Below the pieces are notes generated by a model. That model made no database searches and was not told where the DNA came from. It saw nothing but the letters and a program-made list of their open reading frames with translations. The position numbers and the translations under genes are program-made. Shown here in pieces: positions 2,605 to 30,339 of a stretch of 40,819 nucleotides of DNA (positions are counted from its first letter, which is position 1; each line of letters starts with the position of its first letter). The stretch is from assembly GCA_016285055.1 (NCBI GenBank), contig JAEEPZ010000025.1, positions 1 to 40,819 on the forward strand, in the 5' to 3' direction. The stretch is from Prevotella sp. Lineage in GTDB: Bacteria; Bacteroidota; Bacteroidia; Bacteroidales; Bacteroidaceae.

Positions 2605-5600
2605 ATGAGAAATCTTTTGAAGACATGTCTGGCTTTGGCCGTTATTCTGAGCCTGACGCTGCAGCCATTGCGGGCTGCCAACACCAAAAAGACTGTAGAG
2701 CAAGTGACAACGTCGGTGGAAGTGGTGGATGATGTCGACTACATCGTCACCAGCGCTACACCCTTCGCCAGCGAAGGCATCGTCAACATCACTAACACTG
2801 ACCATGCCGTCGTGATCCTGCAGAACGTGAAGCCCTCGAAGGCCATCCATTTGCTGCCCAGCCATGTGCAGATCAACGGTGCGAAGGCAGTGAACAACAG
2901 CAACTGCCAGGTGAAAATCTATAACCGTGGCTGCATCATCTTGCCCTACGGCAACAGCTTCAAGCCCCTCACGGTCTATTCTGAGAAAAACTTTGAGGGC
3001 GAGTCATCCAATAACTTCGGACTGGGCAACGACGGCGGTTTCATGAACACACTGACTGATGCCCAGCTGAACAACCGCATCCGCTCGTTCAAGCTGAAGC
3101 GCGGCTATATGGTGACATTCTCCATCAAAGCGCGGGGCCGAGGCTACAGCCGCTGCTTCATCGCTGCTGACAAAGACATCGAGATGGCCTCTATGCCTAT
3201 CATCCTCGACCGCAGCATCTCCTCCTACCGCATCTTCAAGTGGTATGACACAGGGAAGCAGCAGTTGGCAGGTGCCGGAGGCGACTTTAATGCCTGCTCG
3301 GCACTGAATGTCACCAGCACCTACACTTGGGGTACAACCAGTGACATGTCGCCTGACGTGGAGAACGTGCCACACCACATCTACGAGAACTATCCTTCAC
3401 CCGCTGCCCTTGGTGGCTGCACCACGTCGCCCCACATGAAGACCAACAATGAGCCTATGAACACTGCCGACGACCCGAAGGGTAAGACAGAGGACATAGA
3501 CCTCATCCTCTCGAACTGGGAAGACCTGATGGCTACGGGTATGCGTCTCTGCTCACCATCCTCATGGGACGGCAGCGACTACACCAACGGTACAGGATTT
3601 CTGAAGAACTTCTGCGATGAGATAGACAGGCGCGGATGGCGCTGCGACATCATCGACCTGCATTGCTACTGGCCTGAGGGAAACTTCGGCACCATCTCGA
3701 ACTGGACCAACAGCACTGGCCGACCTGTCTGGATTTCAGAGTGGGTGTGGGGCGCATCGTGGAACAGCAACGGTGCCTTTGCCAGCGGCGTCACTGAGGC
3801 ACAGAATGCTGAGGTGCTGAAACGCATCTGCAACGTGCTGAACAACAATTCAAACGTCGAAAGATATTATTATTGGAACAGCGAGCGTGACCCCTCAAGG
3901 CTCTACAAGAACGGCTCACTCACCCCTGCCGGTCAGTATTATGCCACCATCAACAGCGGACTGGGATTCAAGGGCAAGGAATATGTGCCCAAGACTCCGC
4001 CACAGGTGCCACCTACCGACCTGAGCATCGACTATGACGCAGCAAGCGGCAAGGCCACCCTGACTTGGACAGAGAGCAACGGAGAGATGAACGACTACAT
4101 CTATGTGCAGCGGCGTGAGAACAGCTATCAGGCATGGGTCACTGTGGTGGACGTGCCCCTGAAGGAAGAGACGGGCACCTACACTGTCAGTGACGTGGAT
4201 GCCAAGGACGGCTGGGAGTTCCGCATCACTGAGAAGATGGCCAACAACACCATCAAATCGTCGAACACCGTCATGGTGGTGAACAACAGCGTGAAGGCTG
4301 GCGATGCTGTCGATGTTGAAGGCAAGACGATGTATCTGGGCGGCAATGCCATCTTCAACGGTTCCTTCGACATGGGCCTCCGTGGATGGACCAACGGGCA
4401 GGGCACATCACTTGGCCAACCCTGGTTCCAGACTCCTGCCATTGGTGGTGCCGACGGCGGTGCCTATCTCCAGTGCTATGGCAACGGCGGCACCAATACG
4501 GTACAGGCCGTGAAGACAGCTGTGAAAGTCGACCCAGAGGCCGTCTATTACTTCATGGTGGACGCATGCAACATGGGTGAGAAGACCATCGCCAGAGTGG
4601 GTCTCAGCAATAACGGCACCTCCCTCAACGGCGGAACGGTGGCCACGTTCAACAATACCTCGGCAGCATGGAACACCAACTTCTATACCTTCAGCAGCGG
4701 TGCCAACGAGTATGCCATCATTCTGCTGAACACGCTCAATGCTCAGGCTCGGTTCGACAACTTCAAGCTCTTCCGCCTCTTTGACACAAAGGAAGAGGCA
4801 CTGGCCGATGCTGCTGCGAAGGCAAGGCAGCGTGCGCAGGATTTCATGGCATATAATCCGCTGTTCAACGACATCCTCACCTCGCAGCTTGCCATTGTCA
4901 AGGAAGACCAGCAAGAAGACATCGCATACGTGGATGACCTGACCGACACCGCCATCAAGGCAGGCTCCCTCTTCCCCATCTTGCGTGACCGTGCCGCTGA
5001 GGTGAGCCACATCGTCAGCCAGTATCCCATCTTCGGCAGCGAGGAGCTGGCAGCCCTCACCAATGACATTCTGACCCAGAGCGTCATTACCCCACAGAGC
5101 ATCTTGGAACAATATGCCGCCCTGACCGATGCCATCGATGAGTACATGCCATTGGCAACAGCAGAAGGCAAGGTGCAGTCGCCCAACTTCGTCAGCTCAA
5201 GTGGGTGGACGGTGAAAGCCGGTACTTACACTGGAGGTGACCAGCGCTTGGCTACACAGGACGGTGTGACCTGCTGGAACGCATGGTGGTCGCTCAATCC
5301 CAGCAACGACAACGGCAGCACAATGGCCATCAAGCAGGACATAGCAGCCCTCGACCTTCCTGGTCTCTACTTCCTGCAGTGTCGTGCTTCCACCCAGCAC
5401 TACTGTCTGAGCGACCAGCACGCTTTCCTGAAGAAAGGCAATGAGACCCTCACCAGCCCCGTGCTGAGAAAGGACTACCTGGACCTGAGCAACATCAGCG
5501 TGGACGACCGCTGGGAGACACTCACCACGCCGCCCTTCTATGTGGACAATGGTGAGAGCTTGACCATCGGCTTTGAAAGTTCAAAAGCAGGCAGCACAGA

Positions 5601-6315
5601 CATGGCCTATCGCAAGGTGGGTGACACTAATGGCAGCGGCGACCATCGCGAGGGATGGTGGTGTGCCACCGATTTTGCCCTGCGGTTCCTGCCTTACTAT
5701 CAGACCAGCGTCACCGCCGCACAGTGGCAGACAGCCTGCCTGCCCTACAGCGTGGCCGCTTCGCCTAAGATGAAGTTCTACCAGATAGCAGGCATCCTCA
5801 GCGATTTCTCCGCTTTGTGCTTGGAGGAAATAGAAGAAGTGGCCGCAGGAGAGCCCTTCCTCTATATGCCTGAGGAGAACATGGCTTGCTTCCGTGAATA
5901 CGGCGAGGTGAAAGAGAAAGCCAATGGCCGAGGCACGGGCAACCTGCGTGGCTTCTATGCTACCACAGGCACCGTTCCCTCCAAGCACTATGCCCTCGTC
6001 GATGGTGTCTGGTGCAAGCCTGAAGGCCGTTTGCCCATAGGCAACTATCATGCCGTGCTGCGACCCTTCGATGACAAGAACAGCAATCCTTACACCCTCT
6101 TCGCCTCTTGGGATGGCCCCACCGTTCCCATCACAGGCATCACAGACAGCGAGCTGGAAGTGCTCACCTCAGACATCAACCAGCCCTCCATCCTCCGCTC
6201 TCAACCTTCCACCCTCTACACCACCAGCGGATTGCCTGTCAAGCAGCAGTCTGCCACTCCTGGCATCTACATCAAGGTTGAGAATGGCAAAGCCACCAAA
6301 ATCATTATCAGATGA
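2605..6315 (+). CDS. Secreted modular glycoside hydrolase, GH128-like
   Basis: A 1236-residue secreted protein. The signal peptide is residues 1-25 (ending PLRA). An N-terminal beta-rich region spans about 30-230. A catalytic region of about 235-455 carries the pattern of the Asl1/glycosyl-hydrolase catalytic core, GH128: E283 in NNEPMN as likely acid/base, the SPSSWDG strand, HCYWPEG, and E379 in WISEWVW as likely nucleophile. GH128 members cut beta-1,3-glucans. A fibronectin-III-like module (about 475-570), a carbohydrate-binding-like jelly roll (about 585-720), a helical linker and a second jelly-roll-like module (about 860-1040) follow. The last 40 residues end in a G-I-Y-I tail typical of Bacteroidales exported proteins. 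ATG 2605 is preferred to TTG 2599, because it starts the signal peptide directly. The stop overlaps the next start (ATGA). Substrate is inferred from family only. Confidence 0.8.
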   Translation: MRNLLKTCLALAVILSLTLQPLRAANTKKTVEQVTTSVEVVDDVDYIVTSATPFASEGIVNITNTDHAVVILQNVKPSKAIHLLPSHVQINGAKAVNNSNCQVKIYNRGCIILPYGNSFKPLTVYSEKNFEGESSNNFGLGNDGGFMNTLTDAQLNNRIRSFKLKRGYMVTFSIKARGRGYSRCFIAADKDIEMASMPIILDRSISSYRIFKWYDTGKQQLAGAGGDFNACSALNVTSTYTWGTTSDMSPDVENVPHHIYENYPSPAALGGCTTSPHMKTNNEPMNTADDPKGKTEDIDLILSNWEDLMATGMRLCSPSSWDGSDYTNGTGFLKNFCDEIDRRGWRCDIIDLHCYWPEGNFGTISNWTNSTGRPVWISEWVWGASWNSNGAFASGVTEAQNAEVLKRICNVLNNNSNVERYYYWNSERDPSRLYKNGSLTPAGQYYATINSGLGFKGKEYVPKTPPQVPPTDLSIDYDAASGKATLTWTESNGEMNDYIYVQRRENSYQAWVTVVDVPLKEETGTYTVSDVDAKDGWEFRITEKMANNTIKSSNTVMVVNNSVKAGDAVDVEGKTMYLGGNAIFNGSFDMGLRGWTNGQGTSLGQPWFQTPAIGGADGGAYLQCYGNGGTNTVQAVKTAVKVDPEAVYYFMVDACNMGEKTIARVGLSNNGTSLNGGTVATFNNTSAAWNTNFYTFSSGANEYAIILLNTLNAQARFDNFKLFRLFDTKEEALADAAAKARQRAQDFMAYNPLFNDILTSQLAIVKEDQQEDIAYVDDLTDTAIKAGSLFPILRDRAAEVSHIVSQYPIFGSEELAALTNDILTQSVITPQSILEQYAALTDAIDEYMPLATAEGKVQSPNFVSSSGWTVKAGTYTGGDQRLATQDGVTCWNAWWSLNPSNDNGSTMAIKQDIAALDLPGLYFLQCRASTQHYCLSDQHAFLKKGNETLTSPVLRKDYLDLSNISVDDRWETLTTPPFYVDNGESLTIGFESSKAGSTDMAYRKVGDTNGSGDHREGWWCATDFALRFLPYYQTSVTAAQWQTACLPYSVAASPKMKFYQIAGILSDFSALCLEEIEEVAAGEPFLYMPEENMACFREYGEVKEKANGRGTGNLRGFYATTGTVPSKHYALVDGVWCKPEGRLPIGNYHAVLRPFDDKNSNPYTLFASWDGPTVPITGITDSELEVLTSDINQPSILRSQPSTLYTTSGLPVKQQSATPGIYIKVENGKATKIIIR

Positions 6316-8960
6316 AACGCACCGTCATCCTCTTAGCCTGCTGCTGTCAGCTGGCTCTTTGTCCCGCCCAGGTGGTGACAAAGGCTGATGTAACTGTTTC
6401 CTTCGACCTCAGTCAGCAAGGCCACCGCTTCAGTCCTACGTGGGGCCTGGACCAGGCTTGGTACAACGAGCAGAACCTGCGCAAGGGACTGAACCACATG
6501 GGAAAGGAGAACGTCAAAGTGGGACGCACAGCCTATCGCTTCACCAAGCCACTGGTCAACGACTCAGCTCTGGCCAGCGACGTCATCAACATGATGAAGC
6601 GCCGTGCCTCTGTCTTCGACATTTTCGACAAGAAGCTTCCCCTCTTCTTCACAGCCGACCAGGATGCAGGCACCTGCGACTACTTCGTGGTGAACAAGAA
6701 CTGCAATGTGCAGCACTGGGCAGCCATGATCAACAGTCATGTGCACTGGATGCAGGCAAATACCGACCATCCCATCATGGGCGTCTCACCCTTCAATGAG
6801 CCCGACTACTGGACAACTGAAGAGGGCGCCACCGTGTCTAAACAGGTGCAGGTGGCAAAGCTGCTGCGCGAGAATTATCCTCGCATGGACAGCGTCAACC
6901 TGGTGGGCGGCAACACGCTGAACAATGACAAGGCGTTGACGTGGTACTCCAGTGGCAAGCAATACTACGACTGGGGCAACACACACCAGCTGGCCGGTTC
7001 TTTCGACAACTATGTCAAGTTCTACCAGCAATTGGTCAAGGACGGCAAGGTGGGCTACAACGACGAGATGCACAATGTGACTGAAGCCATGACAGGCCTG
7101 GAATACGGCATGACTGTCGGCATCTGGTGGGGCTTCGACAGCCGTGCCCGTGGTGAGTTCTGCGACATCAGCAGTCATGGCGAGCGCCTCAGCTATGGTG
7201 AGCACCGTGACAACTGGACCTCTGCCAGTGTCTATCGCCATGATGACGGACGCGTGAAGGCATTTGTGGGTTCCAGCGAGCGGCAGGCAGTGAGCACCAG
7301 CTATCAGTTTGTGTCAATAGACCGCGATGTCTACTTCGACGGCTATGGCCCTACACGGCAGTACCGCATGGTGATGCCTGGAGGTACGGGCTATCAGACT
7401 GGGCAGACCAATGCTGAGTGTGTCATCGACATCTCCTTCGGTGACGATGTGCCGCCAGTGGCCATTACAGACGGCATGTACAAACTGGTGAACAGGACAA
7501 CAGGCAACGCCATTGCCGTCAGTGGCAGCAGCATTGTGATGCAGAAGTACACAGGCAACGCAAGACAGCAATGGAACATCAGCCGTGTCAGTACGCGGAT
7601 TGGCGGAGACTTCAGCTTCTTCGACTTTACCTCAGCCAACAACTCGAAGACGAGAATCAACGTAAGGGACTTTTCCACAGCAAGTCCCGCTGAAATCATT
7701 GCCTATTCAGTCAACGAGACGCCCACCAGCAACGAGCAGTGGTATCTGCAGTATGCTGGCAATGGCTACTATTACATACGTAACCGTGAGAGCGCCTTCT
7801 ATCTGGCCGCTTCCTCCAGCAGCAAGGCCAATGACGTAAAGGTGGAGCAGCGCAGTCTTCCGATGAATGAGGCTGGCAAACGGCTGATGCAGTGGCGCCT
7901 GATGCCCGTTGACATGGCCTACGAGACAATGGCTCCTGCCACGCCGTCAGGCTTAGAGGCTCGGTCACAGTCGGCTTCTGTCCTTCTGACCTGGAGCATG
8001 GGCACTGAGAACGACCTCGACGGCTACATGATTCTGCGCTGTGAGGAAGGCACTGAGGAGTGGAACACCATAGCTCGCCGCGTAGCACAGCCGACGGAAG
8101 GGCTCAGCACAGCGGCCTATGTGGACAACACCGTACTGCCGGGACATGCCTATCAGTATAAGGTAAAGGCTATCGATACGGCGCAGAACCAAAGCACGCC
8201 TTCAGAAGTGGTCAGCGTCACTGTTCCCACCGACAGGGCACTGGTAGGCCACTGGCCCATGGATGGAAGCATCAACGATGTGACAGACAACAGCCGCCAT
8301 GCCGCCGTTGCCCTCAATGTTGCCTACGTTGAAGGACATGAGGAAGGTGCACAGGCGCTGCGCTTCACCAGTGGTCAATGGGCACAGCTGCCTGTCAATA
8401 CTGCCGCCAGCGAAGAGCTGACCGTGGCTGCGTGGGTCAGGGTGATGTCGGCGTCAGGATGGCAAAGGCTGTTTGACTTTGGCTACGATACCAATCATTA
8501 TCTTTTCCTCACCCCCAACAACGGCTCTGCCATGCGACTGGCCATCAAGAACGGCAGCAACGAAGAGCGCCTCGACGCTCCTGCATTGCCAACGGGAAAG
8601 TGGAAACATGTCACTGTGACGATGAGACCGGGGAAGACCTGCATCTATGTGGATGGCGAACTGAAGGCCAGCAGCTCTGCTATCACCATCAGCCCTGCCG
8701 ACGTGAAGCCCGTCATCTGTTACTTAGGGCGCAGTTTCTTCAACGGTGACCCTTACTTCTCAGGGATGATGCAGGATTTGCGCATCTACAACTACTCACT
8801 GAGCGAAGACGAGGTGCAAAGTGTGTTCAACGGCATCTCTGCCATCAGCGAACCTGAGGCAGAGCCCACACCCTCGGCCGTGTACAACATGGAAGGCATC
8901 CGCCTGCAACAGCCACGCCGTGGACTGAACATCATCGACGGCAAGGTCATCCTCAAGTAA
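6312..8960 (+). CDS. Secreted TIM-barrel glycosidase-like protein with ricin, FN3 and LamG modules
   Basis: An 882-residue exported protein, translationally coupled (ATGA overlap) to the GH128-like gene. The signal peptide is residues 1-20 (ALCPAQ). A probable clan-A (TIM-barrel) catalytic region covers about 25-390: SPFNEPDYW places E163 as acid/base, and E252 or E258 (in NDEMHNVTEAM) could be the nucleophile. I do not recognise the GH family with confidence. Then come a ricin-type beta-trefoil (about 395-535, with repeated Q-W motifs), a fibronectin-III module (about 545-640), a LamG/concanavalin-like module (about 645-835, starting GHWPMDG) and a short C-terminal tail (VYNMEGIRL ... GLNIIDGK). 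Coupling to a GH128-like partner suggests the two act on the same polysaccharide, possibly a beta-1,3-glucan. No SusC/SusD genes are nearby. Confidence 0.75.
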   Translation: MKRTVILLACCCQLALCPAQVVTKADVTVSFDLSQQGHRFSPTWGLDQAWYNEQNLRKGLNHMGKENVKVGRTAYRFTKPLVNDSALASDVINMMKRRASVFDIFDKKLPLFFTADQDAGTCDYFVVNKNCNVQHWAAMINSHVHWMQANTDHPIMGVSPFNEPDYWTTEEGATVSKQVQVAKLLRENYPRMDSVNLVGGNTLNNDKALTWYSSGKQYYDWGNTHQLAGSFDNYVKFYQQLVKDGKVGYNDEMHNVTEAMTGLEYGMTVGIWWGFDSRARGEFCDISSHGERLSYGEHRDNWTSASVYRHDDGRVKAFVGSSERQAVSTSYQFVSIDRDVYFDGYGPTRQYRMVMPGGTGYQTGQTNAECVIDISFGDDVPPVAITDGMYKLVNRTTGNAIAVSGSSIVMQKYTGNARQQWNISRVSTRIGGDFSFFDFTSANNSKTRINVRDFSTASPAEIIAYSVNETPTSNEQWYLQYAGNGYYYIRNRESAFYLAASSSSKANDVKVEQRSLPMNEAGKRLMQWRLMPVDMAYETMAPATPSGLEARSQSASVLLTWSMGTENDLDGYMILRCEEGTEEWNTIARRVAQPTEGLSTAAYVDNTVLPGHAYQYKVKAIDTAQNQSTPSEVVSVTVPTDRALVGHWPMDGSINDVTDNSRHAAVALNVAYVEGHEEGAQALRFTSGQWAQLPVNTAASEELTVAAWVRVMSASGWQRLFDFGYDTNHYLFLTPNNGSAMRLAIKNGSNEERLDAPALPTGKWKHVTVTMRPGKTCIYVDGELKASSSAITISPADVKPVICYLGRSFFNGDPYFSGMMQDLRIYNYSLSEDEVQSVFNGISAISEPEAEPTPSAVYNMEGIRLQQPRRGLNIIDGKVILK

Positions 8961-21374: not shown

Positions 21375-23387
21375 TCAACGTTTTTGATAATGACCAGTGC
21401 TAACCCGCACAACCACGTTGTAATTGATGATGAATGATCCCACATAGCGCTCTGCTGTACGCTCAGATATATGCAGTTGACGAGCTATCTGTAGGAATTC
21501 CTTTCTTGTAAACTCCTTTGGCAAGGCATTGAAGAAGGCAAGTTCCTGGGCAGACATCGGTTTTCCTGAAGTGCTGAATGGTATCTCACTGTGAGGCAAA
21601 AGTCGCTTGTAGACATAGACTGTATGGTTGATGAGACACGATGCGATGGTGATGGCTGTCTGGAAGTCGATGTCCGTGCATACCAGTGGCTCACCCTTTT
21701 CTCCAAACCTTGGCTGCCTCTTCTCATGACGCAGTACGGTGAGCACCATGGCTATGCGATAGGTGGTGAGGGCCAGACGGAAGACAAAGGCATCGAGGTC
21801 ATCGCCATAGAGGCCTACTTGCTCGTTATAGAGTGGCTCGAAGAACTGGTTGAAGCGCTTCTTCTGCTCCTCGTTGAGCGTGAACTTCAACGGCTCTTTA
21901 CTATAGGCTTTGAGGTCGTCATAGATGGCCTTGAAGCGCAGACCGAGCGGAGCCAACTGCTCGTAGAGGGTTTCTTCGCAGTCTTCAAACACGTTGCGCC
22001 ATCCACGACTCTTGCGTAGCAAGTAGAACACGAAACGGTTTGCCAGGCCGTTCTCCGTATTCTGGGGTGAGAGCAACAGGGGCACCTGACCGGGTGTACA
22101 GGTCAGCAAGATGGACAGTCGGGGCTTTGCCACATAGACGTGCTCATTGTCCTTGCGGCGACTGTAGTCGATGGTCTCGTGGTGGAAAGCCTTGCGTAGT
22201 CCTGACGAGTAGTCGCCATAGTCCTGCTTGATGGCCTGTGTCAGCGTGTCTGCCTCGGTGTCAAAAAGAGCTCCCCAGCCCTCATTGGCCGCCAGGTCCT
22301 GATAAAAGGCAGTGGCCGAGGCATTGACCGAGATGAGAGGCGAGCGGTAGAGCGGTTCTTCGGGTTCAGTGGCGTTCACCTTCTCTTTTTTGTTCAGCGC
22401 GTCGTAGGCAGCCTTCTGTTTCAGGTACTCGCGGTACTCGCGCTCATAGTTGCTGCGAATCTCGCGTACAATAGGATCTACGAGAGCGAGACAAGCTGGC
22501 AGGACACCCTTGTCGGCAGCCGACGGAGCCACCATGAAGGTATAGAATGGTGGGAAGACTTGTCGGCGGTCGTAAATGCCGCTGACGTTGTCGATGAACC
22601 CAGAAGTCAGGTTGAGTACACCAAGTATAAGCTTGTCTCTCCCTTCTGGCGAGTCCTGTTTTTGGACACCATCGCAAATAATGGGTGGCAGGTCGTTGAT
22701 GTCCAGTTTGTCAGAGAAAGTGGGATTGACAATCGCCGATGCGTCAAGCATCTGCTCGTCTTCCAAAGAGGCAAAGTCCGCCATTTCCGCCATTCCGCCA
22801 CCGCTTTGTGTGGCTGTTACGGATGGTTGGCATTCAAGAGTCCCAGTAGCACTAATATGATTATTATCAACAATATACGCACTGCCGCATGCACTTTCTT
22901 GATTCATCGCGCTCTTCTCTACAGAGCCGTGGCGGAGTGGCGGAACTGGCGGAATTGAGGGGTAACGGCGCCCAATGGCCGAGAGGTCGACTCCGGCATC
23001 CTGTGCCATCTTGTAAAAAGTCTTGATGGTCACGCGACCGTCGCTCTTGGAGAGACACTCCTGCCACTTCTTTTCGCAGTCAGCTTCACGGTACTTCGGA
23101 CTCTGGCTGCACAGAAGATGGAAGAGGTCGCAACCATCCGGGCCAAGCCCATCAGCCAGGGCAAACCCCAGATGTAGATAGTCATCATACGACTCAGCGA
23201 TGTTGGCACCCCTTCGCAACAGCTCGTCAGTAACGGCACGAGCCTTGGCCAACTCATCGTCAGTGGTGGGGTGAGCTACTATCCTCCCTGTCGTCTTGGG
23301 AGCATCTTCTTTCTTGGCGGCATGGTCTGAGTTCATGTTACCAGCGTTGGCCCATGCCAGAGGATCAAAATTAACTAAATTATCCAT
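21375..23387 (-). CDS. PriCT-2/DUF3987 primase-helicase-like protein
   Basis: A 670-residue cytoplasmic protein. Residues about 42-134 form a PriCT-2 (primase C-terminal 2) helical domain with landmarks L-G-F-A-L-A-D-G and W-Q-E-C-L-S and the closing F-Y-K-M-A-Q-D-A-G. A disordered linker (about 140-230) precedes a DUF3987 ATPase-like region (about 235-590). Its loop M-V-A-P-S-A-A-D-K-G sits where Walker A is expected, but lacks the usual glycines and Ser/Thr after Lys; G-A-L-F-D-T-E-A-D is the Walker-B-like strand. The C-terminal 60 residues look like a winged helix (R-K-E-F-L-Q-I-A-R ... S-E-R-T-A-E-R-Y-V). It follows the BT4734/VirE-N gene by 19 bases in the same operon, so the two probably act together as a split primase-helicase. 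Whether it serves a mobile element or the host is unknown. Confidence 0.85.
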   Translation of the reverse strand: MDNLVNFDPLAWANAGNMNSDHAAKKEDAPKTTGRIVAHPTTDDELAKARAVTDELLRRGANIAESYDDYLHLGFALADGLGPDGCDLFHLLCSQSPKYREADCEKKWQECLSKSDGRVTIKTFYKMAQDAGVDLSAIGRRYPSIPPVPPLRHGSVEKSAMNQESACGSAYIVDNNHISATGTLECQPSVTATQSGGGMAEMADFASLEDEQMLDASAIVNPTFSDKLDINDLPPIICDGVQKQDSPEGRDKLILGVLNLTSGFIDNVSGIYDRRQVFPPFYTFMVAPSAADKGVLPACLALVDPIVREIRSNYEREYREYLKQKAAYDALNKKEKVNATEPEEPLYRSPLISVNASATAFYQDLAANEGWGALFDTEADTLTQAIKQDYGDYSSGLRKAFHHETIDYSRRKDNEHVYVAKPRLSILLTCTPGQVPLLLSPQNTENGLANRFVFYLLRKSRGWRNVFEDCEETLYEQLAPLGLRFKAIYDDLKAYSKEPLKFTLNEEQKKRFNQFFEPLYNEQVGLYGDDLDAFVFRLALTTYRIAMVLTVLRHEKRQPRFGEKGEPLVCTDIDFQTAITIASCLINHTVYVYKRLLPHSEIPFSTSGKPMSAQELAFFNALPKEFTRKEFLQIARQLHISERTAERYVGSFIINYNVVVRVSTGHYQKR

Positions 23388-24431: not shown

Positions 24432-25565
24432 CTAACTCACTTTTTGCATGTCACTTTGTCTTAACTTTTTTAGCAAGGCATCACATTCTTCATTGAATTT
24501 CTTCTGCTCTGCCATTATATCAAGTCCCTTCTTGTTATTACTCGTAGTAATGGCGTGCCGTTCGGGGAAACACTCATGTTTTCCTTTATAAAGATTGAGC
24601 AATAATTGATAATAGATCTGTTTGGGATTATCTACCTTACCGCCATCACAGTAGTTACAGAATAGGCGTATTTTCAAGGCATCCATTTTCTTGCGATTGC
24701 TTGGACGAATATCATCAAAATGGGTAATAAGCAGTATCACATCGTCTGCTCTTCCATTCTGAAGGAGTTTGGACGGCATGATGGAGCCATTTGTCTGTTG
24801 TTGCTGCCTGAGACGGCCTATGTTGGCAGCATATATTTTCATTTCCCTTACAGATGGCTTATGGAAATTGCTTTGGGCGTATTTCTCTTTCCCCATCACT
24901 TCAATCTTCTTTAGAATCTCTGATTCAGGAATGTTGTTCATGAAGTCCAGCCTATCCTCCATTTCTTCCAACAACCGCTCACATTGCTCGTCAAGACGCT
25001 GTACGCACAGGGCAGGGTCTGCAATAGTATCCTTCTCTTCTTTTATGACTGAATAGCAAATTGAAAGTGAAGCAATGACACATGCAAAGAGAGCCTGCTG
25101 TTCATAGTAAAGAGCTTGAACGTTGTCATCGAATGAGGTAATATCGTAAAGGTCGCGGGCACAACAGCCTTTGGTAAGTACCGAACGTTCAAAGACAGAC
25201 GGTTTGAAATTGGGATTAGGGGGTAGTTTGCGAATGATGGGGCACCCTTGTCTGAGACGTTTCCTAATACAAGCCATCGAACTACGCAGGCGGTTAAACA
25301 GCATCTCGGCAGTAGTAAAACGCTGATTATCGTCTACGGCAAAATCAAGGTTGAAGGACATCCTAAACTTTGACAAGCGTAACATTTCGCCATAAACTGT
25401 ATCAAGGCAGCGACGCACTTCTGCTAGACGAATGTCAATATCGACAGGGGTGCAATTACGTACATAGAGGCTTGCTATAAAGCGATCTTTCGTCAAATCC
25501 TGGACAGTTTCGATCACTTCAAGCATTCGAGCCTCTGTTTTCTGGTATTTGTCATCGTATGTCAT
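24432..25565 (-). CDS. Hypothetical helical protein, 377 aa
   Basis: I do not recognise this protein. It has no signal peptide or membrane span and is strongly helical and charged. Visible features: an N-terminal coiled-coil-like region (residues 1-60), F-N-L-D-F-A-V-D-D-N-Q-R-F-T-T-A-E, a Cys pair in T-K-G-C-C-A-R-D-L-Y-D, an acidic coiled coil near 185-210 (L-D-E-Q-C-E-R-L-L-E-E-M-E-D-R), R-P-S-N-R-K-K-M-D-A, and a Lys-rich C-terminus. Codon use is more AT-rich than in the flanking core genes, consistent with acquisition. It stands as a single-gene unit with its own full promoter and terminator, between the primase-like pair and the small 150-aa gene. A role connected to these accessory genes is a guess from location. 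Confidence 0.75.
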   Translation of the reverse strand: MTYDDKYQKTEARMLEVIETVQDLTKDRFIASLYVRNCTPVDIDIRLAEVRRCLDTVYGEMLRLSKFRMSFNLDFAVDDNQRFTTAEMLFNRLRSSMACIRKRLRQGCPIIRKLPPNPNFKPSVFERSVLTKGCCARDLYDITSFDDNVQALYYEQQALFACVIASLSICYSVIKEEKDTIADPALCVQRLDEQCERLLEEMEDRLDFMNNIPESEILKKIEVMGKEKYAQSNFHKPSVREMKIYAANIGRLRQQQQTNGSIMPSKLLQNGRADDVILLITHFDDIRPSNRKKMDALKIRLFCNYCDGGKVDNPKQIYYQLLLNLYKGKHECFPERHAITTSNNKKGLDIMAEQKKFNEECDALLKKLRQSDMQKVS

Positions 25566-25619: not shown

Positions 25620-25746
25620 ATAAAAAGATGAAAAAGTTGTCCAAAACGGAAAACTTTCACCGTTTTACTACTAAACATGTTTGCACATCATCCCCTGTGC
25701 CACAAAAAAAATCCATCATTCAGTTCTTTCTTTCATGTATTCTTCG

Positions 25747-25754
25747 TATCTTTG
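25747..25754 (+). promoter_or_regulatory. -7 box immediately before the 150-aa gene
   Basis: TATCTTTG ends only 10 bases before the ATG at 25765, so the transcript should have a leader of fewer than ten bases. The -33 region reads TTTC rather than TTTG. This position rules against the upstream in-frame ATG at 25681. Confidence 0.6.
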
Positions 25755-25764
25755 CATCTTGATT

Positions 25765-26217
25765 ATGGAAACGTCAGAAAAGACGATAGAGTCACAGATT
25801 GCAGCTGTTCTGTCCGACATCCGGCAGAAGGGATATTCGCCCATCCAACCTTTCGCCATCGGTAAGGTCGAGGAGCGAATGATGCTGTTTGCCCAAACTA
25901 ACACCATCACCCTTGCCAGCGACGAACTCTACATGAGTGCCAAGCAATTACAACATTGCATGAGAGCATCAAAAGCCACGAAAGGCTTGGTGGTTAGCGA
26001 TGCCGAACTGATAGGCTTCCCCCAGAATCGTTTCCAGATGGATCTCTACTACGATGGTGAGTGCTTCATCTACACTGACGGACAGTCGAAGTTTATCATC
26101 CATCCGAACTATCAGATGAAGGTGAGCCGTGAGGTAGTGAAGCTGGTCAACTTCATCACTGCCACAAGGCGTATTGATAAGAAGGAGTTCAACGGAAAGC
26201 GCTATATCAAGATATAA
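25765..26217 (+). CDS. Small orphan protein, 150 aa, possible BECR-type RNase fold
   Basis: A 150-residue soluble protein with no close family that I can name. The first 50 residues are helical. The second half is a run of strands around H64: M-S-A-K-Q-L-Q-H, E-L-I-G-F-P-Q, M-D-L-Y-Y-D-G-E-C-F-I-Y, K-F-I-I-H-P-N-Y-Q-M-K, and a closing V-N-F-I-T-A-T-R-R. This helix-then-sheet order, with a conserved-looking His early and a basic strand at the end, is reminiscent of phage barnase/EndoU/colicin/RelE-like (PBECR) nucleases, but that is a loose resemblance. The start is fixed by the promoter, whose -7 box is 10 bases upstream, giving an almost leaderless mRNA. A candidate small RNA is transcribed toward it and ends at its stop codon. 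Confidence 0.75.
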   Translation: METSEKTIESQIAAVLSDIRQKGYSPIQPFAIGKVEERMMLFAQTNTITLASDELYMSAKQLQHCMRASKATKGLVVSDAELIGFPQNRFQMDLYYDGECFIYTDGQSKFIIHPNYQMKVSREVVKLVNFITATRRIDKKEFNGKRYIKI

Positions 26218-26414
26218 GTAAAGCTGGCCAACACGTGACCAGCTGTATGAGAGTGAAAGAAACCAAGCGGCAAGGTCGAATTGCTCATCATCACGCAGAT
26301 GCCACCGTTCCGCACATCGTGGCTCTACTTGGCTTCGCCTTCCTCCTTCGCACCTCGGCAATTCAAGCAAGCTTGATTGCTCTCGGTTTGTCGTCGGTTG
26401 GCTTCTCCTTTCAC
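26213..26414 (-). ncRNA. Candidate small RNA convergent with the 150-aa gene
   Basis: A minus-strand transcript of about 200 bases predicted from a full promoter at 26419-26449 and a terminal hairpin. The 8-bp stem 26222-26229/26237-26244 is followed on the minus strand by TTTACTTATAT. No convincing reading frame starts within it; the long minus-strand open frame has its ATG inside the -7 box. It contains a near-palindrome around AAGCTT (26362-26381). Its 3' end overlaps the stop of the 150-aa gene, giving a short antisense overlap. Confidence 0.45.
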
Positions 26415-26418
26415 GCTG

Positions 26419-26449
26419 CAAAGATAGGCACTTTTTCTGAATCTTCCAA
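26419..26449 (-). promoter_or_regulatory. Orphan minus-strand promoter (candidate sRNA)
   Basis: On the minus strand, TTG (26449-26447), 20 bases, TATCTTTG (26426-26419). There is no minus-strand gene downstream that it could serve. Confidence 0.6.
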
Positions 26450-26479
26450 CTTTTTCCGCAACTTTTTTCATTGAAACCG

Positions 26480-26509
26480 TTGTGGATTTGAAAAATCTTC
26501 GTACCTTTG
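26480..26509 (+). promoter_or_regulatory. Promoter of the methylase/nuclease operon
   Basis: TTG (26480-26482), 19 bases, TACCTTTG (26502-26509). The next start codon is 307 bases away, so the mRNA would carry a leader of about 300 bases. Confidence 0.65.
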
Positions 26510-26513
26510 CCGA

Positions 26514-26816
26514 CGGTTCGGGGAGAAATCCGGACTAACAGAAAGCATTCGCTATTATTTCGCGTTCAGCCAAGAAAGCCTCGCAAACTATCTAAGGTAT
26601 AACAACACGAATAATATGTGACCAGCGACTCGTATAGAGACGCTCTATCCTCCATTTATAGCAATGCATCCGCTAAAGCGTGGTGCAAACTGTTGGAGGA
26701 TAAGAGGTACCTATTGCGAGGCTTCGCCTCTTGCTGAACGCAATAAGCGCATCACGCCCTTTTTGCGTCTTGGCGTGATTGATAGTCGATGCTATGACTA
26801 AAAACTATCAATCGTT
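26514..26816 (+). promoter_or_regulatory. Long structured leader RNA of the methylase operon
   Basis: About 300 bases without a supportable gene but rich in complementary segments. A long-range helix joins 26562-26570 with 26733-26741 (9 bp), 26572-26575 with 26729-26732 (4 bp) and 26576-26586 with 26714-26724 (11 bp), closing a domain of about 180 bases. Inside it, TATCCTCCA (26646-26654) pairs with its complement at 26694-26702. The 3' strand can instead form the local hairpin GAGGC-TTC-GCCTC (26718-26730). Two more hairpins follow: 26751-26758/26772-26779, and 26778-26786/26804-26812, the latter ending four bases before the ATG. Mutually exclusive folds next to the start suggest a regulatory leader; a free RNA is also possible. 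Confidence 0.6.
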
Positions 26817-27929
26817 ATGGCCAAAAACACGAACCTTGGTGCGGCGAAGGCGGCGAAGAACGATGAGTTCTATACGCAGTATGCCGATATTCAGAAGGAG
26901 ATAAACGCCTACTTGGAGTATAACCCTGACACGTTTCGTGACAAGACGGTGCTGCTGCCGTGCGACGACCCTGAGTGGAGCAACTTCACCCGGTTCTTCG
27001 CACAGAACTTTGAGCGGCTTGGACTGAAGCGGCTCATCTCTACCAGCTATGCCGTTGAGAGCAAGAGGTACAAGTATTATGAGCCTACACTCTTCGAGAC
27101 AGAGAGCCCCTTGTTTGATATTGACAAGACGCGCATCAAGGGCAAGATATTCGAGCTGACACATGACACGAACCAAAACGGCGTCATTGACATCGACGAC
27201 TTGGAATGGCATTACCTCGAGGGCGATGGCGATTTCCGCAGCAAAGAGGTGCGCAAACTGCGTGATGAAGCGGATATCATTGTAACCAATCCGCCCTTCT
27301 CGCTGTTTAGGGAGTTCTTAGCGTGGATTATTAGCGCAGGCAAGCAGTTCTTGATTATTGGTAATAAGAATGCAATGACCTATAAAGAGGTATTCCCCCT
27401 GATTAAAGAAAACAAACTTTGGATAGGTCCTTCTATTTTAAGTGGAGATAGAGAGTTTATGGTACCAAAGGATTACGAAACTCATTCACCGTCTCTACGT
27501 ATTGACGAAAAGGGGTACAAATATATACGTGTGCCTGGTGTTCATTGGTTCACGAATTTGGAGCACGGACTTCGTCATGAGCCATTGAAGTTGATGTCGA
27601 TGAAGGATAATATACGGTATAGCAAGCATAATGATTTACGTGAAAATGGCTATCTTCATTATAAAAATTATGATGGCATTGATGTTCCATATTCTGATGC
27701 GATACCGGATGATTATAATGGAACAATGGGCGTACCTCTTACTTTTCTCGATAAGTATTGTCCAGAGCAATTTGAAATCATCGGGCTTGGAATAGGTGAT
27801 TTAGCTAAGGAATTAGGAATAAAGAAAAACCACAGAGGACGGACTGATTTGGAATTTGTAGACCCTAAATCAGAAAAAGCAAAGGTCCCTTATTCAAGAA
27901 TACTAATCCGCAAAAAGCCAACAGAATAA
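26817..27929 (+). CDS. EcoRI-type adenine-specific DNA methyltransferase
   Basis: A 370-residue DNA N6-adenine methyltransferase of the EcoRI-methylase family. The N-terminal part has N-D-E-F-Y-T-Q-Y. The central segment covers a glycine-poor SAM region ([13 protein letters not shown]). The catalytic motif is N158-P-P-F161, followed by F-L-I-I-G-N-K-N-A. The order and length fit the family. The first half uses the GC-rich codons of the neighbours, whereas from about base 27340 to the end the gene is AT-rich, with many AAT, GAT and TAT codons, suggesting a mosaic. One base separates its stop from the DUF262-HNH gene start, so the two are one operon; the leader upstream is unusually long. Recognition sequence cannot be deduced. 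Confidence 0.88.
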
Positions 27930-27930
27930 T

Positions 27931-29118
27931 ATGACCCCCACTCTGATAACTGACTGGACCATCGGCGACATCTGCAAGGGTTTCCAGTATAACGAATACG
28001 AAGGCAAGGGCTTGTATGGCCTTTCAGGTCGGCTGACCATCCAGCCGGAGTTTCAGCGTCATTACCTGTATGCTGAACAAGGCGGCAAGAAAGAGGTGGA
28101 CGTGATTCGGTCGGTGCTCAACGGCTACCCCTTGGGATTGATTTACTTCTCGAAGACTGGCGAAGACAAATACGAGGTGCTCGACGGTCAGCAGCGCATC
28201 ACGTCGCTGGGGCGCTTCATCACCGAGAAGTTTGCATGGATAGACGCTGACGGCAGGCCTTGGTACTTCACCGCCCTGAACAAGGACGAGCAGGAGCGGT
28301 TTCTGAACACACGACTGCTCATCTACATCTGCGAGGGCACGGAGAAGGAAATCAAGGACTGGTTCCGAACCATCAACATCGTGGGCATCCCGCTCAACAC
28401 GCAGGAGACGCTCAACGCTGTCTATTCAGGCCCATTCGTTACCAAGGCCAAGGCGGAGTTCTCTAACTCCACCAACACCCTCGTGAAAAAGTGGAGCTGC
28501 TTTATACGCGGCACCGCCAAGCGTCAGGACTTCCTGCACACCGCCCTTGCATGGATTTCGAAGGACTCGGGCGACGACAAACGCATTGAGGACTATATGG
28601 CCGCCCATCGCTATGAGGACAACATTCAGGAGATGAAGGCCTACTTTACGTCTGTCATCGACTGGATTACGTCGGTCTTCGACTTTGTTCCTGAGAAGGA
28701 GATGTGCGGACTGAAGTGGGGTGAGCTTTACGAGAAATACCACAGCAATGCCTATAACCCTGCCGAGGTAGCGGCCAAGGTGCGCGAGCTATACGAGAGC
28801 TACTATGTGAAGGAGAAGAAGGGCATCTATGAGTATGTGCTTGGCGGCTGTCAGGAGCCTCGCCTGCTGAATGTGCGCGTGTTCGACGCCCCCGTCAAGA
28901 AGGCTGTCTATGCCCAGCAGACTGAGGCTGCCCTGGCTGAGGGCGTGAGCAACTGCCCCTACTGCGCCATCGGTCACGACGCCAACAGGCAGCGCATCTG
29001 GAAGCTCGAAGAGATGGATGCCGACCACGTCACGGCTTGGAGCCGTGGCGGCGAGACCTCAATAGAGAATTGCCAAATGCTGTGCAAGACGCATAACCGG
29101 GCGAAAGGAAACAGATGA
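27931..29118 (+). CDS. DUF262-HNH endonuclease, probable restriction partner
   Basis: A 395-residue protein. Residues about 10-250 are a DUF262 (GmrS-like, ParB/Srx-type nucleotidase) domain with I-Q-P-E-F-Q-R, L-N-G-Y-P-L-G and the hallmark D85-G-Q-Q-R89. The C-terminal 55 residues are an HNH nuclease: C342-P-Y-C345 zinc pair, D365-H366 in [21 protein letters not shown], and a final H-N-R-A-K-G-N-R. In GmrSD-type enzymes DUF262 powers cleavage of modified DNA. Beside a dedicated methylase, it more likely cuts unmodified DNA or is gated by modification state; this is inference. It starts one base after the methylase stop. All catalytic residues visible to me are intact. Confidence 0.88.
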
Positions 29119-29709: not shown

Positions 29710-30339
29710 ATGAAACCGACTATCATTGAAGATACAATATTTGAATTTGAAACGATTGAAGAAGAAGGCTCTGTGCTGATGGCAGCTGAGGCCTCATGGA
29801 GAGGTATGGCTGACGAGCTGCAGGAACTACACTACTTGAAAGGTGCCCAGTTTATTAACCAACTGAAACAAATTATCTACTATGGTGAGTTCCATCCTGT
29901 AGAAGGTGACACCCATATTTACAGCGCCATTAGTGAAACGAGTGACGATTTCGACAATCTTATCAATGCTGCGCGCAAGGCTGTAGAACATGGCTATCGT
30001 GTCTTTATACTGCCTAATCCGAGGAATTGTCGAACAGCCGATTTCATATTTGAAAAGAAAGGTATCCTCGGACTCTATGATTTGAAAACTGTCTATGGAA
30101 AAGGTTCTGTAGGAACACAATTGCTTGATTCCATTGGACAGACGAATCGTGTATTACTGAATATGCTGACAGACTATAATGCGCGTTTGTTAGCTTCTGA
30201 CATCAAAAGCTATTTTGAGTCAAACCGTGATGCTATTGAGGTGCTGATATTCAAGGGTAACAAAATCATCACCGTCAAGCGTGGGTTGGCTTGCAATCCC
30301 AGTTTCAACCGAATATTCAGAAAACTATATGAAAAATAA
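29710..30339 (+). CDS. Orphan PD-(D/E)XK nuclease-like protein, 209 aa
   Basis: A 209-residue soluble protein. The N-terminal 80 residues are acidic. From about 80 it reads like the restriction-endonuclease fold of CdiA-type tRNase toxins: N-A-A-R-K-A-V-E-H-G-Y-R-V-F-I-L-P (helix then strand), D111 in T-A-D-F-I-F, D124-L-K126 in L-Y-D-L-K-T, then G-S-V-G-T-Q-L-L-D-S-I-G-Q-T-N-R-V-L (Ser/Gln helix). A helical tract and a strand E-V-L-I-F-K-G-N-K-I-I-T-V follow. D111 and D124-x-K126 are the candidate metal ligands. The protein lacks a signal peptide and any delivery domain, so it acts in the cell. No immunity or antitoxin gene is adjacent, but a convergent candidate small RNA ends over its stop codon. 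Nuclease function is inferred. Confidence 0.72.
   Translation: MKPTIIEDTIFEFETIEEEGSVLMAAEASWRGMADELQELHYLKGAQFINQLKQIIYYGEFHPVEGDTHIYSAISETSDDFDNLINAARKAVEHGYRVFILPNPRNCRTADFIFEKKGILGLYDLKTVYGKGSVGTQLLDSIGQTNRVLLNMLTDYNARLLASDIKSYFESNRDAIEVLIFKGNKIITVKRGLACNPSFNRIFRKLYEK

Follow-up and report, generated by a model that had tools for sequence, protein, structure and literature searches.

The locus and its operon

The window analysed here is a 40,819-nucleotide stretch of a Prevotella sp. contig (JAEEPZ010000025.1). The genes and features that frame the leader under study are the following.

21375-23387 (-): DUF3987 and PriCT_2 (primase-type) gene, upstream of the restriction-modification operon
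26502-26509 (+): promoter -7-like element TACCTTTG, motif TAnnTTTG
26510-26816 (approximate): leader, ~300 nt in front of the operon
26515-26536 (+): P0, 5' hairpin with loop motif GGAGAAAT
26817-27929 (+): EcoRI-family adenine methylase gene (PF13651, 439.3 bits)
27931-29118 (+): GmrSD_N and HNH nuclease gene (PF03235 and PF01844), product matching PADLOC REase_II PDLC03418 (272.3 bits)

Judged from its sequence, the operon is a type II restriction-modification system whose methylase and nuclease genes adjoin, with a spacing of 1 nt. Flanking ORFs at 25681-26217, 24432-25565 and 29710-30339 gave no Pfam match in a scan for a controller gene that covered the larger ORFs. The primase-type gene on the opposite strand suggests that a mobile element sits upstream of the operon.

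The + strand of the leader folds with a predicted energy of -109.3 kcal/mol (z -6.29), a value reached by none of 100 dinucleotide shuffles; the - strand has z -4.90. Together with the presence of the P1 and P2 pairings described below, this bears out the first-pass annotation, which had proposed a structured leader with a long-range helix before the operon. Its observation that no gene lies between promoter and ATG also holds, as the ORF list of the window contains no ORF of 60 aa or more that begins and ends within the leader. Identity with a known RNA was considered and rejected: Rfam 15 yielded no match at the gathering threshold in the window, none up to E 10 for 26480-26830 and none at gathering for 12 related loci. 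The window contains neither tRNA nor tmRNA, and these identities were likewise rejected.

A conserved core with a predicted knotted fold

The core is described by a covariance model, R1, which comprises 205 positions and rests on 20 sequences; since 18 of these are methylase leaders found by protein similarity, its hits lean to methylases. Removal of duplicates reduced 202 R1 hits to 198 copies, which together with their loci (numbered with the prefix L) form the basis of the comparisons below. The elements of the core in the window are listed here in order.

26545-26741 (+): core (P1-P4, PK1, PK2), R1 match of 118.8 bits, E 7.5e-30
26553-26561 (+): PK2 5' strand TATTATTTC, partner at ~26608-26616
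26562-26570 (+): P1 5' strand GCGTTCAGC, partner GCTGAACGC at 26733-26741
26578-26586 (+): P2 5' strand GCCTCGCAA, partner TTGCGAGGC at 26714-26722
26608-26616 (+): PK2 3' strand CGAATAATA, partner at 26553-26561
26646-26702 (+): P4, long hairpin, with 81.8% of cells paired in the outer and 92.7% in the inner/apical helix
26646-26654 with 26694-26702 (+): outer part of P4, TATCCTCCA with TGGAGGATA, a 9-bp stem
26703-26708 (+): PK1 5' strand AGAGGT, partner at 26726-26731
26714-26722 (+): P2 3' strand TTGCGAGGC, partner GCCTCGCAA at 26578-26586
26726-26731 (+): PK1 3' strand GCCTCT, partner at 26703-26708
26733-26741 (+): P1 3' strand GCTGAACGC, partner GCGTTCAGC at 26562-26570

In an alignment of 49 sequences that had been fitted to the tested structure, 91.7% of cells in the 41 pairs of P1-P4 hold standard pairs, and 37 of the 41 pairs have changed on both sides, with 365 two-sided cells; controls in which the partner was slid by 1-3 columns have 34-45% of cells paired and 44-84 two-sided cells. 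Compensatory changes in homologues, by which the first-pass annotation had proposed to judge its long helix, are present in both of the helices that compose it: P1 is paired in 98.8% of cells with 9/9 pairs changed on both sides, and P2 in 96.4% with 7/9. The inner 9-bp stem that it reported is the outer part of P4, where 17/19 pairs of the whole hairpin have changed on both sides; one P4 pair is A-U in 25 and G-U in 18 of the 49 sequences. The 4-bp middle block assigned to the long helix did not hold up, as it uses a strand of PK1.

The pseudoknots were evaluated by a test in which one strand of each leader is set against its own partner or against that of another leader. Swap and shuffle controls retain the kinship among leaders, and so do three negative controls, all of which were flat (own/swapped 12.66/12.49, 6.96/7.00 and 14.23/14.22). 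PK1 scored 14.13 with its own partner versus 12.20 with swapped ones (sd 0.16, n=196), and in a MAFFT alignment of 50 sequences it is paired in 92.4% of cells with 3/6 pairs changed on both sides. PK2 scored 17.41 versus 16.71 (sd 0.11, 198 leaders) and has a compensatory TATCGTTTC/GAAACGAT combination in L064 and L067; it is the weakest of the helices, and covariation backs it weakly. On these grounds the leader RNA is predicted to fold into a knotted structure. The core of L260 carries a ~40-nt tandem duplication of the P2'/P1' region relative to L238. Alignments A4-A7 were fitted to the structure of R1.

Upstream of the core, TAnnTTTG, which we take to be the Bacteroidetes -7 promoter consensus, occurs at 25-110 nt in 167/196 copies (median 44 nt), compared with 13/193, 7/192 and 8/189 in the next three windows further upstream, which served as controls. 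In the window the promoter-like TACCTTTG stands far upstream of the methylase gene, as the first-pass annotation had it, and not just before 26817. The P0 loop motif GGAGAAAT is found up to 75 nt upstream of the core in 106/197 relatives; other 5' segments stand in the place of P0 in some relatives, and P0 is therefore probably dispensable. In L071, L026, L058 and L238 it is replaced by a 5' segment with a GGAGG.GCC-like sequence and the core is unchanged, which indicates that the 5' domain of the leader is itself exchanged.

Two alternative partners for strand b

Strand b, which forms the 3' side of the P4 tip, has a second possible partner beyond the core.

26664-26673 (+): strand a, 5' arm of the P4 tip, pairs with b
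26678-26686 (+): strand b GCGTGGTGC, 3' arm of the P4 tip, alternative partners a or a'
26737-26768 (+): P6 hairpin (A-rich arm, loop with a', U-rich arm), with covariation
26749-26757 (+): strand a' GCATCACGC, pairs with b
26758-26764 (+): U-rich tract CCTTTTT after a', also 3' arm of P6

Strand b can pair with a in the P4 tip or with a' in the P6 loop, never with both, and covariation backs both of these mutually exclusive helices. Across 194 leaders a:b scored 14.78 with own versus 13.21 with swapped partners (sd 0.16), and b:a' scored 20.59 versus 16.92 (sd 0.22). In the MAFFT alignment b:a' is paired in 99.0% of cells, with 5/6 pairs changed on both sides; b:a' and PK1 jointly are paired in 95.8% of cells with 63 two-sided cells, versus 35-62% and 1-10 in slid controls. 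This alignment holds 50 of 173 candidate sequences, the structure counted was written after the sequences had been inspected, and on one measure, further pair types, 100/500 shuffles reached the observed value. One b:a' pair is G-C in 19, G-U in 18 and A-U in 12 sequences. Such G-U intermediates, in b:a' as in P4, fit the + strand as the pairing RNA. P6 itself scored 17.16 versus 14.10 (sd 0.24, 187 leaders).

An a' able to pair with b and followed by a T-rich tract is present in 187/194 leaders (median 9 bp; a' is 68% G+C). In these 187 the 8 nt after a' contain on average 5.40 T, versus 1.13 before a' and 2.32 in the background, and 164 have at least five. The arms of the b:a' stem lie ~60 nt apart. 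When b:a' was forced in a nested energy model, it was disfavoured in all 80 leaders computed (the first 80 of the 187 to pass the filter), at a mean cost of 17.4 kcal/mol (5.8 to 29.7) relative to unpaired a'. The cost arises because b:a' crosses P1 and P2, so that it must form either as a third pseudoknot or before P1 and P2. A simple scan for intrinsic terminators on the + strand of 26200-27000 found none. Pairing of a' with the downstream GGCGTGAT (P7), which is present in the minimum-energy fold of the window's leader, was rejected (own 13.44 versus swapped 13.68, n=130).

Competition between helices had been suggested by the first-pass annotation, and at the sequence level covariation favours mutually exclusive helices, although the nested energies oppose b:a'. 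These helices are other ones than the hairpin it named: GAGGC-TTC-GCCTC can form at least 5 Watson-Crick pairs in only 7/198 relatives and is not conserved, and its arms belong to P2 and PK1.

The hairpin at the start codon and classes of leaders

26777-26786 with 26804-26813 (+): hairpin c:c', GATTGATAGT...ACTATCAATC, before the ATG in class A leaders

As had been noted earlier, a last hairpin precedes the start; 3 nt separate it from the ATG at 26817. Its arms are nearly invariant (own 21.38 versus swapped 20.43, sd 0.13, n=130) and its spacer differs in length between relatives. TGATAG, an element of this hairpin, stands before the start in 100/105 leaders of EcoRI-type methylases and in 20/22 leaders of other restriction-modification or defence genes, as against 7/49 of the leaders of 'other' genes (all 198 copies). 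This split between gene groups defines class A and class B leaders.

A further group, type C, comprises leaders of more distant methylases from the same family (19 aligned), which were picked by eye; a profile that linked several of these leaders was seeded with, among others, L009 and L041. The order P1-P2-hairpin-P2'-P1' looks, by eye, unchanged. At the position of P6 these leaders have a local hairpin and a T-run overlapping P1', as in L009, the T-run being interrupted in L027 and L028; to the eye this arrangement looks nearer to a textbook terminator. A possible hairpin, ATACGC/GCGTATG, takes in the start codon. In L009, L041, L007, L027, L072, L076 and L016 a 5' strand GCGTTTGCT...TATTCGG has, by eye, two possible partners, one internal and one adjoining the start-codon hairpin.

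Distribution of the leader

The tallies of genomes with R1 matches are lower bounds, because searches that covered over 40 genomes were filtered more strictly and scored few candidates per genome, and the genus, family, order and phylum samples overlap. Matches were found in at least 158/398 genomes of the genus (at least 62/175 of those of good quality), in at least 91/399 genomes and 16/30 genera of the family sample, and in at least 21/393 genomes and 12/206 genera of the order sample. In the phylum sample of 345 only the window's own genome matched, and none of the other 344. The loci examined consist of the best matches and 100 regions hand-picked from listed places, a selected rather than random sample. 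A second, distant copy exists in the window's genome at C210:48231-48426 (-) (L083 2732-2927, L130; blastn); it precedes an exported-protein gene, and no methylase gene was found nearby.

R1 matches 15/60 relatives. Among 80 loci of methylase relatives, ~40 have a leader profile match with E < 1e-3 directly upstream of the methylase gene (24 of these in the seed). Of the 80, 75 were folded, four being without upstream DNA and L056 being left out, and in 61/75 the 260-nt upstream stretch has z <= -2.8 (30 shuffles each), so structured leaders may be common before this family. Among the R1-unmatched structured stretches are L082 (Verrucomicrobia, -8.7), L065 (Clostridia, -6.7), L039 (Kiritimatiellae, -6.2) and L047 (Fibrobacter, -5.1). 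These and L050, all labelled outside Bacteroidales, with z of -5 to -8.7 and without useful R1 scores, are possibly separate leader families.

A phage-borne RNA was considered and rejected. The exact pattern occurred on viral contigs in one stretch, L288, where the R1 match covers only 25 nt (E 0.0086); a looser pattern gave 119 stretches, and none of the 80 examined was convincing (best E 0.44). A blastn search with 26470-27000 matched plasmids (15 records) and phages (1 record) in the methylase part only.

Several loci contain more than the usual single copy or an unusual neighbour. L025 has a second copy at 7386-7591 (+) behind its restriction-modification operon, facing a gene on the opposite strand (by eye), and the cassette is bounded by two leader copies in direct orientation. 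L123 has copies at 2681-2879 (+) and 6305-6507 (-), in opposite orientation within 4 kb, one per class. In L113 a divergent ORF with a start that looks like Cas9 to the eye lies ~570 nt from the copy at 3837-4036 (+), and 291 nt of contig remain beyond the core.

Genes behind the leader

An ORF of at least 100 aa starts 20-250 nt after the core in 178/198 copies, and at 60-95 nt in 137/198; on the upstream side, the start of a divergent ORF falls in the 20-250 nt range in 36/180. The leader is thus on the same strand as the following gene and at a set distance from it, as expected of a riboswitch. The remaining 20/198 copies lack an ORF of 100 aa in that range: 12, including two at contig ends, are without an ORF of 50 aa, and the other 8 have one of 50-99 aa only.

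Among the 169 copies at loci that came from model searches only, 77 precede EcoRI-type methylases and 22 precede gene clusters that match restriction-modification or defence families in Pfam or PADLOC, the families having been assigned by scanning cluster representatives. These 22 comprise HsdM (3), N6_N4 methylase (3), DUF4268/PDC-S11 (3), HSDR_N (2), C5 methylase (2), type III methylase (2) and one each of RNase_T/DEDDh, type IIG N6 methylase, putAbiC, MmeI, PLD-SNF2, ResIII-HNH and Tsp45I. Nine copies precede two clusters, the L143/L146 type (six members) and the L219 type (three), that have no family in Pfam, PADLOC or NCBIfam; one precedes a UDG-like protein below the cut-off, and 12 are without an ORF. 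The 48 'other' genes encode acyltransferases, a glycosyltransferase, a sulfatase, LRR and BACON proteins, CsgG, a C10 peptidase and unknowns, one of them (L208) with a weak PADLOC match. A leader special to the window's methylase was rejected in view of these many unrelated genes.

The proposal that the leader serves to express methylase before nuclease is not supported, because both genes follow the same leader, 1 nt apart. In addition, relatives stand before genes for a Tsp45I-type nuclease (L126) and for one-protein type IIG enzymes (L246 and L228), and before genes outside restriction-modification.

Closely similar leaders frequently head different genes: 372/939 leader pairs that are at least 80% identical over at least 200 nt precede non-homologous genes (protein clusters, BLAST 1e-10). 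The leaders of L204 (EcoRI-type) and L205 (C5 methylase) are 95.4% identical, and those of L238 (EcoRI-type) and L260 (DUF4268) 96.5%. In four aligned pairs homology starts near the promoter, P0 or the start of the core and is gradually lost near the start codon or shortly past P6.

Discussion

The ability of b to pair either in P4 or with a' suggests to us a cis-acting switch of the attenuator type. That the conserved leader family, with its covarying helices and pseudoknots, would act in this way on the following gene or operon is a proposal to which we give an even chance. Transcription would start near 26515, and P0-P4 would fold first. If b were kept with a, RNA polymerase would presumably read on into the methylase-nuclease operon. 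Pairing of b with a' would instead place a GC-rich stem, immediately followed by a U-rich tract, ~55 nt ahead of the ATG, and transcription is predicted to stop there. The choice between a:b and b:a' would be made by the P1/P2/PK1/PK2 core, through sensing of a molecule or protein, and in restriction-modification leaders the nearly invariant c:c' at the ATG may add a second control, at translation.

The features expected of an attenuator, a GC-rich stem strand and a U-rich tract, occur together in the 187/194 leaders described above, but the loop is ~60 nt long, P6 is an alternative and the scan of the + strand gave no hit. A stem with such a loop is an unusual terminator, and the U-rich tract is also explained as the 3' arm of P6. 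The main rival is a translational switch with a kissing-type platform, in which the P6 loop (a') docks on b and sets the start region with c:c' open or closed, without any stop of transcription. We regard this as a realistic if somewhat unlikely possibility: P6 and b:a' both covary and are compatible as a hairpin with a loop pairing, c:c' ends close to the ATG and the possible type C hairpin includes the start codon (by eye), but TGATAG is missing in 57/187 leaders, so that c:c' cannot serve as the output shared by all. It is the terminator-like hairpin of type C that leads us to lean towards attenuation.

An independent structured RNA from the same promoter had been offered as an equal alternative. 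As a trans-acting small RNA that just happens to be located before these genes and has its end at P6, it would account for the element's own promoter-like motif, the copies without a following ORF (12/198 at the 50-aa limit, 20/198 at 100 aa) and the L025 copy facing an opposite-strand gene (by eye); the same-strand ORF at a set distance from its start codon and the conserved hairpin at the ATG of class A leaders make it improbable. The element could also matter mainly as DNA, a recombination module where the leader stays constant and the genes behind it are exchanged. The frequent occurrence of closely similar leaders before non-homologous genes and the limits of homology in the four aligned pairs are what such a module would leave, but compensatory changes and G-U intermediates on one strand need RNA pairing and the c:c' spacer varies in length, and we consider this reading very improbable.

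The leader may represent a new riboswitch-like class that senses phage attack or a linked cell state, switches a regulon of restriction-modification, other defence and cell-surface modification genes across Bacteroidales, and spreads as a regulatory cassette capturing new defence genes. This broader proposal is speculative and, in our estimate, unlikely. A large knotted leader common to unrelated defence genes would place RNA sensing at the top of bacterial immune control, and the long-open question of what raises or lowers restriction systems would become testable via the binding partner of the core. Leader swapping between unrelated genes also offers a route to new defence genes by what precedes them.

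Control of restriction-modification and phage-defence gene levels is known mostly from protein regulators and antisense RNAs. C proteins are among the known controllers of restriction-modification genes. WYL regulators are reported among the known controls of restriction-modification genes or defence islands (PMC9122601), and antisense RNAs and reverse promoters are reported to control restriction-modification genes (PMC3874152). The RptR repressor, as described in PMC12255303, sets restriction-modification and defence-island expression and sits upstream of varied modules, as the leader does. Unlike in protein or antisense control, the shared element here is a structured leader, and no such protein or antisense gene was identified among the larger ORFs. 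Our literature search found no leader RNA of restriction-modification genes in Bacteroidales; the motif described here may be among the thousands of candidate RNAs in the supplements of PMC8040213. A term search of PMC10043782 found no mention of restriction, methylase, phage, Bacteroidetes or defense.

Terminator/antiterminator attenuators resemble the leader in that one strand has two possible partners and a GC-rich candidate stem strand precedes a U-rich tract; they differ in that the stem arms of the leader are ~60 nt apart and no ORF of 60 aa lies within it. Riboswitches likewise have a conserved knotted core before genes with a promoter-like motif just upstream, and the helices near a U-rich tract, mutually exclusive in riboswitches, are predicted to be so in the leader. 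In contrast to riboswitches, the leader heads genes of restriction-modification, other defence functions and the cell surface instead of those of a single pathway, and Rfam gives no match. The cobalamin riboswitch makes a loop-loop (kissing) contact: one of its hairpins, close to the expression site, uses its loop to pair with the core. The leader is predicted to make a comparable contact; it differs in lacking an Rfam match and in that the partner strand, b, is itself paired in P4.
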